This document shows positions 3,088-32,392 of a stretch of 32,392 bases of DNA, piece after piece; the first letter of the stretch is position 1, and each line of letters starts with the position of its first letter. Source of the stretch: Verrucomicrobiota bacterium. Its GTDB lineage: Bacteria > Verrucomicrobiota > Verrucomicrobiia > Chthoniobacterales > JAFAMB01. Under the pieces are notes generated by a model, which was given only the letters and a program-made list of their open reading frames with translations, was not told the DNA's origin and did no database searches. The DNA is taken from the NCBI GenBank assembly GCA_019247695.1, contig JAFBAP010000132.1, positions 1 through 32,392 on the forward strand, given 5' to 3'. The translations under genes were made by a program, and so were the position numbers.

Positions 3088-3226
3088 GGTGGTGGGCCTT
3101 ATCAGACTCCAGCCGAGCATGCGCGCTCAGGGCAACTCCTATGAAAATGTGATGGTCGAAGCGTTCTTCAGCACGTTGAAAACCGAAGCCTTTCCTCCTG
3201 ACCGGGTCTTTATACCATTTCGATGA
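3088..3226 (+). pseudogene. Remnant of IS3-family transposase (OrfB integrase core)
   Basis: The plus-strand frame reads LQPSMRAQGNSYENVMVEAF followed by FSTLKTEAF. This matches the well-known IS3/IS150-group segment around SMSRKGNCYDNAxxESFFSTLKTE, including the last catalytic Glu of the DDE triad (here E in MVEAFF). Nothing upstream in the same ORF resembles the rest of the integrase core, and the frame stops about 13 codons after the motif, where the compound repeat R2 begins. It is a short relic, not a functional gene. Confidence 0.8.
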
Positions 3227-3229
3227 CCA

Positions 3230-4087
3230 TGAAGGTAAAATGTTGTCTTCCGTCCCAGGTGCCCTGCCAGCTTTAAACCTATTCGACCGTATAAACGGTC
3301 TAGGCCCAACGGGCCGGGAGACCTTAGCCCAGGGTCTCACCCCCCTGCCATTTAGTTAAGGATACAAGGCCGGGTACTGCTTTGGTCCCGCAGGGACGGC
3401 TGATGTTAGGCAGGTACGTTAGTGCCTGTGCGGGCGTTCCCCAGGAGTTGCACTCCCTCGGGACGCCTGAAGGCGTGCGCCGGGCCGGGCGGGCGTCAAC
3501 GGTGGGGCGCCGTTCGGGCGTTCGTCGCCGAGGGTCGCGCCGTGTCTGGCTGGCCCTTCGGGAGTCGGCATCCTCTGGGGCAGCGTTTCAGGCGTCCCGA
3601 CGGGACGCGAGCCCTCTTAAATGTCCCGTCCAGGGACTGAAGTCCCTGGCTAAGATCAGCCGTCCCTGCGGGACGAAAGCGTCGCCTATCCATCGGCCCT
3701 TAACTAAATGGCAGTGGGGTTTACCCTGGGAACGCACCCCTCCCCGATCGAGCCCTCCTAAGGCGTCACGTCCGTACGCCCTCCCTAACAAACGCCCGCC
3801 CCGCCGGGTTGGATTTGCTGAAGGGGCGAAAGAACCCGTGAGCCACGCCTTCTGCCGCCCCTTCAGGGCTTGATCATGATTTTACGGTTACCCAGGGTAA
3901 ACCCTGGGCTATGGTCTACCGGCCCGTTGGGCCTAAGACAAAAATTTTTACCTCGATGGTCATCGAAATAAAGGTCCCCCGGCCCGTTGCGCCCAAGACC
4001 GACTCACCCAGCTACGGAGCATCCTCCGGCGCCGATACCCCCTGAGCCGGCATTCTACCGGGATAACTATCTGAATGGTATTACCTC
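3230..4087 (+). repeat. Compound intergenic repeat, copy R2, carrying a MITE-like insert
   Basis: Begins with an atgaccatgaaggtaaaat module, then a cgtataaacggtctaggccc module and tagcccaggg. It is interrupted by the TIR element at 3341-3719, resumes as ttaccctgggaacgca, passes through a hairpin core (arms around 3817-3835 and 3850-3868, less perfect than elsewhere), gattttacggttaccc, a second cccagggtaaaccctggg palindrome, gcccgttgggcc modules, and ends with ccggcattctaccgggataa near 4055-4087. No coding potential beyond repeat-derived peptides. The transcribed genes on either side stop outside it. Confidence 0.85.
3341..3719. mobile_element. MITE-like non-coding element with terminal inverted repeats, copy A
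   Basis: About 379 bp. The left end (3341-3360) and right end (3699-3719) are inverted copies sharing the core gccatttagttaag. Imperfect inverted homology continues inward for some 70 bp: ggtcccgcagggacggctga at about 3383-3402 is mirrored at about 3648-3672. A second copy lies at 9626-9936 and a right-half copy at 14541-14613. It encodes no transposase. It sits inside a cccagggt/ttaccctggg palindrome of repeat R2, splitting it. Confidence 0.75.
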
Positions 4088-9414: not shown

Positions 9415-9990
9415 GCGCTGATTGACGCTCTGCCCCCCCGATGATCGCTTTTAGGCCCGAGGGAGGGCGGCAGAACCTGGGAGTCACGCTTTCTGCCGCC
9501 CTTTCAGGGCTGGATCGTGATTTGACGGTTACCCAGGACTAGGTTCTCTTGGCCCTTCGGGCCGTAAGACGGTAACGGCTCTCCCCGTGCTGCCCTCAAA
9601 AAGGTGGATAAAGCTCCGGGGTAAACCCCACCGCCATTTAGTTAAGCATACAAGGCCGGGGATTGCTTTGGTCCCGGAGGGGCGGCTGAGGTTAGGCAGC
9701 AACTTTAGCGGCTGCGCTGTGCGGGCGTTCCCCCGGGGTTGCGTCCCATCGGGACGCCTGCAGGCGTGCGCCGGGTTTGGCTGGCCGCTTGGGAATGGGC
9801 ACCCTCCGGGGCAGCGTTTCAGGCGTCCCTACAGGACGCGATCCCTCTTAAATGCCTCGTCCAGGGACTGCAGTCCCTGGCTAACCTCAGCCGTCCTTTC
9901 GGGACGAAAGCGGCCCTTAACTAAATGGCAGTGGGGATTCCCCTGAGCTAGGTTCCAGTGCCCGTTCGGGGCTGGCCGAATCCCCTCGAC
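9415..9990 (+). repeat. Compound intergenic repeat, copy R3, carrying a MITE-like insert
   Basis: Contains a hairpin core (arms about 9453-9474 and 9491-9512), the string gatttgacggttaccc, a ggcccttcgggcc module and a long module around acggctctccccgtgctgcc that recurs at 32.1-32.2 kb. The TIR element 9626-9936 interrupts it between gctccggggtaaa and attcccctgagct. The remnant tail reads ggttccagtgcccgttc. The remaining bases 9991-10135 up to the MaoC-like gene show nothing. Confidence 0.82.
9626..9936. mobile_element. MITE-like non-coding element, copy B
   Basis: 311 bp. The termini 9626-9646 and 9916-9936 are inverted 21-bp repeats with a single mismatch (core gccatttagttaag). The interior matches copy A at 3341-3719 over most of its length: tacaaggccggg near the left end, gcgggcgttccc, gcgtgcgccggg, then ggcagcgtttcaggcgtccc and ccagggactgcagtccctgg, itself a palindrome. 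It lacks the roughly 65 bp of extra sequence seen in the middle of copy A. No ORF of its own encodes a recognisable protein. Confidence 0.78.
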
Positions 9991-12979: not shown

Positions 12980-13681
12980 CTAAGATGCGTCGGCAAGCTG
13001 CCGCGCCTGCAGGTGGACAATGACCTGGTGAGTGGCTTCCAGGTAAATGCGTCTGAACGCGCGCAACGCCTCGGCGACTTTGTCCTGACGGCAAAGCTCG
13101 ATCAGCACCTGGTGCTGCGGCGGCCGCACCTCGGGGGTCGGAAACAACTTGATCAAAAGCGGAATGTAACGCGTCGCCCGGTCGTCCAGCTGACGGAACG
13201 TCTCATCCAGAATCGGGCGGCGTGCCTTTTCAAGAATGATGGCCCAAAAGCAACGGTTACTTTCAAAAAATTCTCCGGCGCTCCGGGTGCGCAGAATCCG
13301 TTTGGCCAGTTCCGAGGCGCGGTCAAAGTCCGCGGGAGAAAGGTGACGGTATGCCGGTTTAATCGCCAGTGCGATGAGGGCCAACCTGAGTTCCGCGATG
13401 TCCAAGGCCTCTTCAGGCGAGAGGGGTTTAACGATCGCGCCCCGGTAGGGCGACATGACCACGGTACCCTCTTTCTCCAGGGCCAGCAGCGCTTCCCGGA
13501 CAGGCGACCGGCTTACCTTGAACGCCTCTGCGAGCTCGACCTCGGGCAGACGCTCTCCGGGCTTGAAAACCTCGTCGAGGATCGCGTCGCGGATCTTCTT
13601 CATGACCACCACCGGCACCTTGTCCGCGTGCTGCGGGGCATTCGTCCTGAACTGGGATGGCCATGCGCGCGCCTCTTCCAT
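12980..13681 (-). CDS. GntR-family transcriptional regulator, FCD (FadR) subfamily
   Basis: 233 residues. Winged helix at about 22-86: KKIRDAILDEVFKPGERLPE, then VELAEAFKVSRSPVREALLA and LEKEGTVVMSPYRGAIV, a textbook GntR N-terminus. The FCD effector domain spans about 90-225. In metal-binding FCD proteins the first ligand pair is D-x3-H; here the equivalent is N142-x3-W146, while H190 (PQHQVLIEL) and H218 remain, so metal binding may be lost. Palindromes of the TTGTATACAA type lie upstream (13748, 13895, 13958), which suggests autoregulation. It is convergent with the M14 hydrolase gene and could also act on the 7.4-kb sugar promoter, which has a related site. Confidence 0.92.
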   Translation of the reverse strand: MEEARAWPSQFRTNAPQHADKVPVVVMKKIRDAILDEVFKPGERLPEVELAEAFKVSRSPVREALLALEKEGTVVMSPYRGAIVKPLSPEEALDIAELRLALIALAIKPAYRHLSPADFDRASELAKRILRTRSAGEFFESNRCFWAIILEKARRPILDETFRQLDDRATRYIPLLIKLFPTPEVRPPQHQVLIELCRQDKVAEALRAFRRIYLEATHQVIVHLQARQLADAS

Positions 13682-13747
13682 CGTTTGAGCGACCGGGCTT
13701 ACCGCCGTTCCCCGAGTCTGTCCACCGGGCTGGAGGAGTCAAGTTTT

Positions 13748-13967
13748 TTGTATACGATCAGGGGCGTCGCATACACGCTCACCAAGCCCTCAAGCCTTCC
13801 CCCCTCCCCTCGGTTCCGGCCGTGAACGACTCATCGGCCTTTCCGTGGCGCCAAGCCGGCCCCTCGGGGCGCATCACCCGTTCGGATAACAAACGGTATA
13901 CAATGCCGCTTGTCACATACAAGTTGATTGACACTGCGCGGCGCGGTGGCATCCATATTGTATACAA
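13748..13967. promoter_or_regulatory. Cluster of GTATAC palindromes upstream of the GntR gene
   Basis: ttgtatacga at 13748-13757, ggtatacaat at 13895-13904 and a perfect 10-bp palindrome ttgtatacaa at 13958-13967; a weaker gcatacacg lies near 13769. GntR/FCD proteins commonly bind short palindromes of this sort. The first site is 67 bp upstream of the GntR start; the last is 70 bp upstream of the small ORF starting at 14038. A further tgtataca stands at 14681-14688, followed by ggtgtaaaaa. Binding by the neighbouring GntR protein is inferred. Confidence 0.55.
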
Positions 13968-14037
13968 AACGGATCATGGAATACCGGGCCGGGACGAGCC
14001 GAAGCTCGGCGGCACGCGGCATTCCGGACGAGCACTT

Positions 14038-14286
14038 ATGCTGATTCACTTCACTCTTACCACTGAGGAGGTCCACGACCTCATCCTCGGGGCGAACTAC
14101 CTTGAGCGCCGGCTCAGGAACGCCGCTTCAAGCGTAAGCGGCGGCGAACGCGAGTTCTTGATCGCGCAGGCCGGTCGCCTTGAGGCGGTTGCGGAGATCC
14201 TGGTTGACGCGAGCGACGCGAGGCTGAGTGAAGTGATGAACGAGCCGAACGACTCTGTGGCGAGGCATCCGCACCAGGGGAATTAA
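14038..14286 (+). CDS. Small hypothetical protein, 82 residues
   Basis: From ATG 14038: MLIHFTLTTEEVHDLILGAN continuing as a helical, charged protein (LERRLRNAASSVSGGERE, AQAGRLEAVAEILVDASDA). I recognise no family. The regular spacing of hydrophobic residues and the balanced charge resemble a real small protein rather than a repeat-derived frame. The longer in-frame extension upstream (to 13657) overlaps the GntR gene and its operator region and is rejected. A TGTATACA-type palindrome lies 70 bp upstream. Downstream it is followed at once by compound repeat R4. Real gene status is moderately likely. Confidence 0.5.
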   Translation: MLIHFTLTTEEVHDLILGANYLERRLRNAASSVSGGEREFLIAQAGRLEAVAEILVDASDARLSEVMNEPNDSVARHPHQGN

Positions 14287-14287
14287 C

Positions 14288-14660
14288 GCCCTTTCGATAG
14301 CCATCGAGGTAAAATTTCGTCTTAGGCCCAGCGGACCGGCAGACCTTAGCCCAGGGTTCCGCAATGGGAACGCACCCCCCCTGATCGAGCCCTGAAGGGG
14401 CGGCAGAACCCGCAGCCACGCGTTCTGCCGCCCCTTCAGGGCTCGATCGCGATTTTACGGTTACTCAGGGTAAACCCTGGGCTAAGTTCTGCCGCCCCTT
14501 CGGGGCTGAAATCGAGCACAGGCACAGGCACCAAAGTACCTGACTAACCTCAGCCGTCTCTGCGGGACGAAGGCCACGCCTGGCCTGCCGTCCTTAACTA
14601 AATGGCAGCGGGGTAAACCCTGGGCTAAGTTCTGCCGCGTCTCCGGGGCTGAAACCCGGT
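14288..14660 (+). repeat. Compound intergenic repeat, copy R4, with the most perfect hairpin core
   Basis: The core hairpin has 27-bp arms, 14383-14409 and 14422-14448, with no mismatch and a 12-nt loop. It is preceded by a gatagccatcgaggtaaaat module and tagcccaggg, and followed by gattttacggttactc, gggtaaaccctgggctaag and a gccgccccttcggggctga module. A right-half copy of the MITE-like element follows (14541-14613), then another gtaaaccctgggctaag module to about 14660. From 14661 to 14766 only a tgtataca site is seen. Confidence 0.85.
14541..14613. mobile_element. Truncated copy of the MITE-like element (right end only)
   Basis: tgactaacctcagccgtc to cttaactaaatggcag plus gcgggg matches the right-hand about 75 bp of copies A and B, including the terminal inverted repeat (14593-14613). 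The left end is absent: upstream sequence is a short unrelated stretch after the R4 hairpin module. It suggests deletion or one-ended recombination between copies. Confidence 0.7.
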
Positions 14661-14766
14661 CGAAATTCCACCAAGGAAACTGTATACATTGGTGTAAAAA
14701 AGGCGGCCGGCTTACGGGGGCAAACGGGGCCGAGGGTGCGATGAGATATACCGGCTTCCAGCTCGG

Positions 14767-28695: not shown

Positions 28696-29235
28696 TGGGT
28701 CAGTTGTCAAAGTTGTTGGCATTGATTGGCCCACAGATTGGTTCTTGTTCGGCTACGGCGCGCAAGGGTTGCTTCCGGGCCCGGCTTATGCCAGAGGCCC
28801 GTAAGCTTCCCGCTTCTACCCTTTCGACGGCCATGGAGGTAAGAGCTTGTCTTGCTTTGCAGGTGCCCGGCCAGCGTTACACCTACCAGATCGTATAAAC
28901 GGTCCACGCCCAACGGGGCGGCAGACGGTTTGATGGCCTGAAGGGCCAAAGGAACTTAGCCCAGGGTTTACCCTGGGAAGACGTTTCCCCCTCGATCGAG
29001 CCCTGAAAGCGCGGCAGAAACCGTGAGCAACGCCCTCTGCCGCCCTTTCAGGGCTCGATTGTGATTTTACGGTTACCCAGGGTAAAACCCTGGGCTATGT
29101 TCTACCGGCCCGTCGGGCCTAAGAACCGGCCCGTTAGGTATAAGGCCGATTCAACCGGGTACGGAGCGTCCGCCGGCGCCGGCGCCCCCTGGGCCGGCAT
29201 TCTACCAAGATAACTATCTGAATCGTATCAGGCGG
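28696..29235 (+). repeat. Compound intergenic repeat, copy R5
   Basis: Starts with gggtcagttgtcaaagttgt, the reversed outer end seen at 31963. It continues with ggccatggaggtaagagc, cgtataaacggtccacgccc, gacggtttgatggcctgaag, cccagggtttaccctggg and a core hairpin (arms 28995-29018 and 29036-29059, one mismatch in 24). Then come gattttacggttaccc, cagggtaaaaccctggg, gcccgtcgggcctaag and ccggcattctaccaagataa, ending near 29235. In this copy gaagg/ccttc of the stem has become gaaag/ctttc on both arms. No coding content. Bases 28509-28695 and 29236-29298 show nothing clear. Confidence 0.85.
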
Positions 29236-29886: not shown

Positions 29887-31962
29887 ATGTTTGGCGCCAT
29901 GCAACGCCCGTTTCATTCGGTTTATGCGCACGGTTTTGTCCGTGCGGTGGTTTGCATCCCGCACGTGCGCGTTGCGGATCCGAATTTCAACCTTGAGCGC
30001 ACGTTAGGGTTAGCCCGTCGTGCATCGGAAATACATGCAGGCGTGGCGCTATTTCCTGAACTGGGGATTTCAGCCTATTCCAACGAGGACCTGTTTCATC
30101 AGGATGTTTTGCTGGACGCCACGGAGGCGGCCATCACCCGGCTCATCACGGAAAGTACGGCATTGTCCCCGGTGCTGCTGGTCGGTGCACCGTTGCGCTT
30201 TGAAGGCAAACTGTTCAATTGCGCGCTGGTCATCTACCGCGGGCAGTTGCTCGGCATCGTGCCGAAAAGTTTTCTGCCGAATTACCGTGAGTTTTACGAG
30301 AAAAGGCAGTTCAACACCGGGCGAAACGCGGTCCATCGCGAGGTGCTGTTCCTGGGCAAATCGGTGCCGTTCGGCAACGACCTGATCTTTGATGCGTCCA
30401 ATTACGACGATTTTTCCATCCACGTGGAGATCTGCGAGGATGTCTGGACGCCGATACCGCCCAGCACCTATGCGGCGTTGGCGGGCGCGACGGTGCTGAC
30501 CAATCTTTCCGCGAGCAACATCACGATCGGCAAAGCCGAATACCGGCGTGACCTTTGCGCCTCGCAATCGGGCAAATGCATTGCCGCATACCTCTACTCT
30601 GCAGCCGGCCCGGGAGAGTCCACCACCGATCTGGCCTGGGACGGGCACGCGATCATCTATGAAAACAATGAGTTGCTGGCCGAGGCGGAGCGCTTTTCCA
30701 CGGATGAACAGATCGTCGTGGCTGACCTTGACCTCGAACGGCTCGCTCAGGACCGGATGCGCCAGACCAGCTTCAACGATGCCGTGGCGGATCATCGCGA
30801 GCGCGTCCGCGCCATCCGCCGGGTGGCTTTTGAGTTCCAGGTGCCTGAAGGAAGGATCCCGCTGATCCGGAACGTTGAGCGATTCCCGTACGTCCCGAGC
30901 GACCCGTCGGTGCGCCATGATCGCTGCTTTGAGGCTTACAATATTCAGGTGCACGGCTTGCTGAAGCGATTGAAAAACACGGGCCTTGAAAGGGTTGTGA
31001 TCGGCGTATCGGGCGGCCTCGACTCAACCCAGGCGCTGATTGTCGCGGCCAAAACCACAGACCGGCTTGGATGGCCGCGCGATCGCATCCTGGCCTACAC
31101 CATGCCCGGATTTGCCACCAGCAGCATCACTCTGAAAAACGCGCACGGCCTTATGCGTGCGCTAGGGGTAACCGCCAACGAGATCGACATCCGGCCAAGT
31201 TGCGTGCAGATGCTGCGCGACCTCGGGCATCCCTTCGCCAAAGGCGAGCGCGTTTATGACGTGACTTTTGAAAACGTGCAGGCCGGTGAACGTACTTCGC
31301 ACCTTTTCCGGTTAGCCAATTTCCATAACGGCCTCGTGCTCGGCACCGGCGATCTGAGCGAACTGGCGCTTGGCTGGACCACCTACGGCGTCGGCGATCA
31401 TATGTCCCATTACAACGTCAACGCGTCTGTCCCGAAGACGTTGATTCAGCACCTGATTCGCTGGGTGATCAGCGCAGGGGAATTCAACCAGGAAACGAAT
31501 AACGTTCTGGAGTCCATCCTGAACACCGAGATCTCGCCCGAACTGGTGCCTCACGAGAGCGATGAGCAGAGGGAACCGGCACAGCGAACCGAGCAAAAGG
31601 TCGGGCCGTATGACTTGCAGGATTTCAACCTGTACTACACCACCCGCTATGGATTCCGCCCGAGCAAAGTCGCCTTTTTAAGCCAGCACGCCTGGGAGGA
31701 CAAAGCCCGTGGCACCTGGCCGGATGGCTTGCCGGTCGAAAAGCATCGCCAATACGATCTACCCGCGATCAAGAAGTGGCTGGACGTTTTCGTGTATCGC
31801 TTTTTCAAAACCAGCCAGTTCAAACGTTCCTGCCTTCCCAACGGTCCGAAGGTCGGCTCGGGCGGCTCGCTTAGCCCGCGTGGCGATTGGCGCGCGCCCA
31901 GTGATGCCGAAGCCACGATCTGGATCGACGAATTGCGGCACAATGTACCCGATTTGAACTAG
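29887..31962 (+). CDS. nadE: Glutamine-dependent NAD+ synthetase
   Basis: 691 residues from ATG 29887 (MFGAMQRP; the second Met, 29899, is an alternative), the size of the two-domain Mycobacterium-type enzyme. The N-terminal nitrilase-like glutaminase has the Glu-Lys-Cys triad: E58 in [13 protein letters not shown]127 in [14 protein letters not shown]183 in [11 protein letters not shown]. The C-terminal synthetase has the ATP P-loop [14 protein letters not shown] (375-380) and [18 protein letters not shown]. It amidates deamido-NAD with ammonia channelled from glutamine, in the cytosol. The upstream in-frame extension to 29626 is Arg/Pro-rich and not protein-like. The TAG stop (31960-31962) is directly followed by repeat R6, whose end itself carries ctag, so the repeat may supply the stop. 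Confidence 0.96.
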
Positions 31963-32392
31963 TGGGTCATTTGGCAAAGTTGTGGCCATTAATACCATTC
32001 AGATAGTTATGCCGGTAGAATGCCGGCTCAGGGGAGGGGCGCCGGCGTCAGGGGATGCTTCGTACTTGGTCGAATCGGTCTTAGGCCCAACGGGCCGATA
32101 GAACCTAGCCCAGGGTAAAGCCCTGAGCTTTACCCACATTGTTTGAGGGCAGCGCGGGGACAGCCGTGACCGTCTTTCGGCCCGAAGGGCCAAGAGAACT
32201 TAGCCCAGGGCTTTACCCCCTGGGTAACCGTAAAATCACGATCCAGCCCTGAAGGGGCGGCAGAACCCGACGGCAACGCTTTCTACCGCCCCTTCAGGGC
32301 TGGGTCGGAGGGAGGAACCCGTTCCCAGGGTGAAACCCTGGGCTATGTTCCTTTGGCCCTTCAGGCCATCAAACCGTCTCCCCGCCCGTCGT
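31963..32392 (-). repeat. Compound intergenic repeat, copy R6, inverted and cut by the window end
   Basis: Reads in the opposite orientation to R1-R5. Starts at 31963 with gggtcatttggcaaagttgt, the mirror of the R1 outer end at about 380-411, then ccattcagatagttatgccg. Within it: gcccaacgggcc, tagcccagggtaaagccctg, the long module around 32110-32165 shared with R3, ggcccgaagggcc, gggtaaccgtaaaatcacga, and a core hairpin (arms 32239-32265 and 32281-32307, 27 bp, two wobble-type mismatches). It ends at the window edge in ggcccttcaggccatcaaac, the same module as R1 at about 260-285. Confidence 0.85.

Follow-up and report, generated by a model that had tools for sequence, protein, structure and literature searches.

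Intergenic hairpin repeats of a verrucomicrobial genome as a probable REPIN/MITE hybrid linked to an HUH transposase subclass

What are the large, strongly structured repeats that recur between the genes of a verrucomicrobial contig, and by what route did they spread? The window, i.e., the whole 32,392-nt stretch analyzed (contig JAFBAP010000132.1, assembly GCA_019247695.1), was predicted from its letters to hold six copies, for which a family mobilized in trans, a structured RNA, or nucleoid and termination elements were proposed. Our analysis makes it very probable that the repeats are non-autonomous mobile DNA built in two layers, with a REPIN-like array inside DDE-type ends, i.e., a REPIN/MITE hybrid.

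All six copies were recovered, and repeat-coverage boundaries combined with end alignment assign them to one genome-wide family of discrete intergenic elements. The element under study (R3) is a 408-bp compound repeat bounded by terminal inverted repeats (TIRs) at 14287-14694 (repeat-coverage boundaries, 14288-14697; ends placed by visual alignment with the TIR family); the extent first proposed, 14288-14660, misses about 35 nt at the right. R3 starts directly 3' of the stop codon TAA of the open reading frame 13657-14286, and this codon (14284-14286, plus strand) is the left copy of a target-site duplication whose right copy, also TAA, occupies 14695-14697. Its central hairpin (C'-loop-C; 14383-14448) has an apex loop and arms (14383-14409/14422-14448) that match perfectly over 27 bp, exactly as predicted, and on the plus strand the double hairpin Acido-Lenti-1 of Rfam (A + linker + B) was matched at 14464-14507 (43.4 bits). 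Folded as single-stranded DNA, 14287-14694 is far more stable than its dinucleotide shuffles (z = -9.4; 0/100 shuffles reach it). More specifically for the other copies, whose limits were set by repeat coverage, TIR search and sequence, R2 (3213-4080; coverage, 3208-4084) has TIRs, a TTA target duplication (3210-3212 and 4081-4083), and a nested second repeat (3345-3714) with ends CTGCCATTTAGTTAAGG/CCTTAACTAAATGGCAG and its own Acido-Lenti-1 match; the plus-strand double hairpins at 3630-3675 and 3891-3934 score 49.1 and 37.0 bits, respectively. The copy at 9464-9974 has no TIRs, is truncated on both sides, and contains a nested repeat at about 9631-9931 and a plus-strand double hairpin at 9861-9906 (41.7 bits). 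R5 (28817-29227; coverage, 28810-29232) combines a degenerate left TIR with a good right TIR (TCA outside) and a plus-strand double hairpin at 29076-29120 (41.3 bits). R1 (101-389; coverage, 101-393) is truncated on the left near the contig start and retains a right TIR (362-389; TTA outside at 390-392), and R6 (31993-32392; coverage from 31985) has a left TIR (TAA outside at 31990-31992) and runs past the contig end. Since both contig ends (1-389, 31993-32392) lie in or beside copies, the elements probably break the assembly, and the true copy number is probably higher. The five window matches to Acido-Lenti-1 (RF01687) all fall within the repeats and, at 37-49 bits, above the curated cut-off.

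The copies are mosaics, in line with the expectation that module content varies as if recombined: second repeats are nested in 3213-4080 and 9464-9974, and recombination between copies has presumably contributed. The nested repeat (3345-3714; about 9631-9931) has CTGCCATTTAGTTAAGG ends, often with CCCCA just before, and these ends occur in the sister species (G001) too (L206, L208); its Acido-Lenti-1 hairpin is a different variant that resembles the flanks of another RAYT (G004:C75).

The family also extends beyond the window. With ≤1 mismatch allowed, the 14-mer GATTTTACGGTTAC was counted 94 times in the host genome (G000; 5.19 Mb) and 0 times in the reversed control, BLAST with the element under study returned 125 matching pieces there, and comparison of about 45 host-genome loci revealed discrete repeat blocks, mostly of 270-880 bp, with unique flanks. 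Another pattern, GATTTKACGGTTACCCAGG, gave four single matches in unrelated genomes among those named, which we took as chance.

The outer layer was defined by a TIR of ~30 bp (TACCATTYNGAYRGYYAT...GGTRRAA) that bounds the arrays in the host genome, where the TIR search gave 176 matches, as opposed to 0 in nine family relatives (same genus included) and 0 in the reversed control. TNA, typically CTNA, lies outside 79/104 host-genome ends, and identical 3-mers were found in 11/26 end pairs, or in 11/18 of the pairs with TNA at both ends, where about a quarter would be expected by chance. The 15/26 TIR pairs that lack matching 3-mers count against our explanation; recombination may account for them. 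At one locus, the sister species is uninterrupted and carries a single TAA, a clean empty site which, together with the discrete ends and the target duplications, supports the proposal of a family mobilized in trans. This is the one clean empty site, the others being imperfect or broken in synteny, which also weighs against our explanation; in the window at 3.2-4.1 kb, homology to the sister species ends near the element edge with no clean empty site.

TIRs of another sequence were found in G029, which shares its genus with G051 and belongs to a family other than the host's. This genome has about 30 copies with one identical score, and alignment of nine of them revealed an element of ~145 bp in which TIRs of ~20 bp (CTGCCKATCCGRAAAACCC) enclose half an array; 8/8 complete copies are flanked by a 3-bp duplication, TAA/TTA. 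Empty sites for these elements in G051 or G022 were not obtained, as the flanks lay on different contigs. The host elements likewise combine TIRs with a target duplication of constant length, several copies being degenerate or recombined. They resemble MITEs of IS5/IS1031-type elements in their ~30-bp TIRs, 3-bp TNA duplication and lack of coding capacity, TNA being the target rule of IS1031. Unlike such MITEs, they enclose a REPIN in place of IS remnants, and no parent IS was found among the PF01609 loci. In particular, none of the six PF01609 (DDE_Tnp_1) loci of the host has these TIRs as its ends among 100 of the 176 TIR places, and the G029 TIR was not found at DDE loci of G029. Separately, one MITE of the host genome adjoins a transposase fragment (C170). 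Because of the TIRs and the 3-bp TNA duplication, set in a CTNAG context, the last rounds of spread would have been catalyzed in trans by a DDE-type transposase, IS5/IS1031-like to judge by the duplication; that no parent DDE element was found among the DDE loci compared counts against our explanation, and this step is argued from the ends and duplications. We propose that DDE-type ends arose in two lineages, those of the host genome and of G029, and that they explain the recent spread in the host.

The inner layer leads to a different enzyme. The window contains no RAYT, as originally predicted, but the host genome does have a RAYT-like gene, in an element copy. Of its two Y1_Tnp genes, the first appears to encode a standard transposase of the IS200 type (148 bits to Y1_Tnp) and has no flanking inverted repeat; the second (L105:2007-2477, G000:C153) is RAYT-like and sits between B'-A'-C' and C-A-B, modules that occur in the same order in the window element. 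It occupies the position equivalent to the central hairpin of R3 (14383-14448), whose apex is a short loop instead of the gene (15 nt in 56/61 arms scored in the host genome). The same hairpin-flanked arrangement is present in G001, G004, G045, G051, and G053. Across the order, inverted repeats flank 31/32 subclass-1.2 genes (proteins with DHVH/WQ/Y---Q--HH), a level reached by 0/200 shuffles, and 30 of these 31 exceed the 95th percentile of mismatched-locus pairs; under the same shuffle and mismatched-locus test, no flanking inverted repeat was found at two IS200-type genes. A lenient Rfam scan of 17 subclass-1.2 loci against 4227 families (E ≤ 5) returned 40 matches, 35 of them to RF01687, which lay mostly on the minus strand upstream and on the plus strand downstream of the gene. 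Among 241 genomes of the phylum, Acido-Lenti-1 was detected in 47/54 with the gene versus 18/187 without it (Fisher p = 1.6e-27, a statistic that ignores shared ancestry), the latter 18, which have the motif and no detected transposase, counting against our explanation. In one distant member of the phylum (G246:C1:769620-773563), a subclass-1.2 gene is surrounded by Acido-Lenti-1 in direct arrays, versus inverted ones in the host genome.

The proteins (~150 aa) bear the signature DHVH, WQ, Y---Q--HH of TnpA_Y1 subclass 1.2, which Quentin et al. (2018, PMC6006769) describe as close to IS200, devoid of IS properties, generally without typical terminal structures, scored "no" for REP, and found mostly in Cyanobacteria and Bacteroidetes. 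The genes examined here share the signature, size, and low copy number of that subclass but have flanking REP-like arrays, so that "no terminal hairpins or REPs", a descriptive rather than a defining trait of the subclass, does not apply to 31 of the 32. An AlphaFold model of the transposase (pLDDT 84.5) matches TnpA of ISDra2 and IS608, and at rank 30 the E. coli RAYT-REP complex 4er8 (rmsd 2.9). Relatives of the transposase are documented to cleave REP hairpins that have a GTAG foot, and by analogy with TnpA_REP the transposase presumably binds the Acido-Lenti-1 palindromes in single-stranded form, with cutting and joining close to the nTAG foot.

Hairpin units that lack the gene are abundant in G051, in which 20/20 sampled units consist of two inverted half-arrays separated by an unconserved spacer of ~35 nt and end at hairpin B, mostly measuring about 212-272 bp in all; neither a TIR nor a target duplication was evident by eye in these 20 units. 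In the REPtron of G051, the gene stands where these units have the spacer. The comparison with REPINs (BIMEs) and their RAYTs (PMC2817692, PMC3116915) is close in several respects: the elements are intergenic inverted hairpin doublets of high copy number that match the flanks of one HUH/Y1 gene, and a non-autonomous form without the gene exists. A Y1 gene flanked by inverted palindromic repeats was found repeatedly, the host's own gene included, and the flanking repeats recur elsewhere at high copy number as inverted doublets in both G000 and G051. In contrast to known REPINs, the halves consist of three hairpins each (B, A, C); the foot by hairpin A is nTAG (GTAG in G001; TTAG/ATAG/CTAG in G000, G051, and G045) rather than strict GT(A/G)G, which in G000 counts against our explanation; and the transposase belongs to a subclass reported to lack REPs. 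The absence of long TIRs and target duplications that marks REPINs holds by eye in G051 and not in G000 and G029, the host-genome unit sitting inside TIRs with a TNA duplication.

In the REPIN/MITE reading, the two inverted hairpin sets (B'-A'-C' ... C-A-B, with A + linker + B forming Acido-Lenti-1) would derive from the flanks of the small HUH/Y1 single-strand transposase gene of subclass 1.2; the unit with the gene would be a REPtron, and replacement of the gene by a short loop would yield the non-autonomous repeat. The arrays would then have acquired the TIR pair with its 3-bp TNA duplication, and recombination and nesting between copies would account for the mosaics. We infer the action of both enzymes and the order of these events, and any effect on neighboring genes is likewise conjectural.

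The strongest competitor regards the repeats as simple MITEs derived from a DDE insertion sequence, in which the hairpin arrays are merely carried along and have no functional connection to the Y1 transposase. The TIRs, TNA duplications, and empty site agree with it, as does the G029 MITE, which has a different TIR and the same target. It does not explain why G051 has abundant units of hairpins alone, with no TIR or duplication evident, that match the REPtron of that genome, or why the association with subclass-1.2 genes holds across many families, and we rate it as unlikely. The TIRs might instead belong to the Y1 transposase unit itself, with no DDE enzyme, as in the published TIRYT/TIRtron class, where RAYT-like genes likewise have inverted repeats nearby that are not simple REPs (PMC3733652). 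In G000, the RAYT-like gene is closely preceded by a TIR (L105:1853), and in G001 the gene is followed downstream by a TIR-like end of another kind (L146:2724). However, IS200/IS605-type enzymes are described as making no target duplication, in conflict with the 3-bp duplications in G029 (8/8) and at the G000 empty site, and G001, with the same RAYT, lacks the G000 TIR. We consider this reading improbable. Neither target duplications nor a link to Acido-Lenti-1 appears in the accessible account of the TIRtron class (PMC3733652), and the host elements have both. The same account reports REP units adjoined to unrelated stem-loops in Pseudomonas and GTAG repeats in the verrucomicrobium Opitutus terrae.

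We assign a similarly low probability to the possibility that the repeats are functional chromosomal elements (bidirectional terminators, or sites for gyrase or nucleoid proteins) selected at gene ends. In its favor, the hairpins are strong, 0/42 elements lie inside a called gene, consistent with the prediction of a purely intergenic location, and the neighbors of 37 elements with both genes called are convergent (19) or tandem (18) and never divergent (0), all according to a home-made codon-based gene caller. A general preference for insertion into stop codons was not supported (4/37 versus 20/370 in the control, not significant). However, relatives differ in copy number (0 to about 77), this species alone among ten family genomes has the TIR-bounded form, the empty site reveals insertion polymorphism, and purifying selection on insertions would leave the same location pattern. 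A termination or nucleoid role, as a by-product, would fit the preference of the elements for gene 3' ends.

The structured-RNA reading concerns the hairpin core. RF01687 began as a proposed RNA motif and is filed as an sRNA of unknown function (Weinberg et al. 2010, PMC2864571), and the copies here agree with it in sequence and structure above the curated cut-off, so the original suggestion of a structured RNA has Rfam on its side. In 27 divergent hairpins A and B, which are joined by CTA and a short linker, from several genomes, 311/324 pairs are Watson-Crick, with many compensatory changes and several pair types at most positions; when one arm was slid by one base, the count fell to about 160. 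These results demonstrate that the structure is conserved beyond sequence. Non-canonical pairs are limited to 3/324 G-U and 1/324 A-C, with no clear strand asymmetry, and such a near absence of G-U would be expected of a DNA palindrome rather than of an RNA helix. Since G-U pairs are scarce, the pairing is palindromic, and the place around an HUH transposase gene is fixed, we favor a DNA role, against the sRNA label, with the motif as the outer part of a mobile DNA element. That Acido-Lenti-1 is a genuine small structured RNA, with the repeats as RNA genes spread by duplication, would suit its origin as a candidate RNA motif, the 37-49-bit matches, the covarying pairs, and a position downstream of genes where it would often be transcribed, yet it is the least probable reading given the pair composition, the half-arrays in both orientations within each unit, the inverted placement around the transposase gene with phylum-wide co-occurrence, and the transposon ends.

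REPINs, REPtrons, MITEs, and verrucomicrobial GTAG repeats are known kinds of element. The link between Acido-Lenti-1 and subclass 1.2, as well as the REPIN-in-MITE hybrid, look new within the open-access literature, because the accessible text of open-access papers on the motif ties it to no transposase. Our reading would supply a candidate substrate for an orphan transposase subclass and suggest what an orphan Rfam family may be, and Acido-Lenti-1 annotations should not be taken as regulatory RNAs; a 2026 paper guesses that the motif regulates proteases in Tannerella forsythia (PMC13298647). The evidence seems to us evenly poised on a broader conjecture, namely, that the Acido-Lenti-1 family is the REP-type DNA substrate of this orphan HUH subclass, whose arrays were captured into DDE-type MITEs in at least two lineages, with different ends and the same CTNAG/TNA target, yielding dual-mode elements that could be handled as single-stranded hairpins as well as double-stranded transposons. 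A hybrid with TIR-bounded MITEs would constitute a route for domesticated REP arrays back to transposons.

Further repeats were observed in the surroundings of the elements. An orthologous intergenic region (G001:C186:5078-5483 and L189) carries Acido-Lenti-1 elements with different ends in both species and may be a hot spot of insertion. An unrelated repeat family of ~58 nt, starting GCGGCGGAGTTTTGCGGCGTAGCCGGAGAATCC, is represented in the right flank of L017 (query positions 601-658) and has about 20 occurrences in G001. A repeat with GTGGGTCATTTGTCAAAGTTGTGGCCATTAA lies directly outside several element ends (window 31959-31992, the right flank of 101-389, L007, L009, and L185), as if elements had inserted repeatedly into one site of another repeat family. 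Finally, arrays of the heptamer GGGTAAC border some elements (L012 at about 1235-1351 and 1819-1909, the right flank of L039, and L044).
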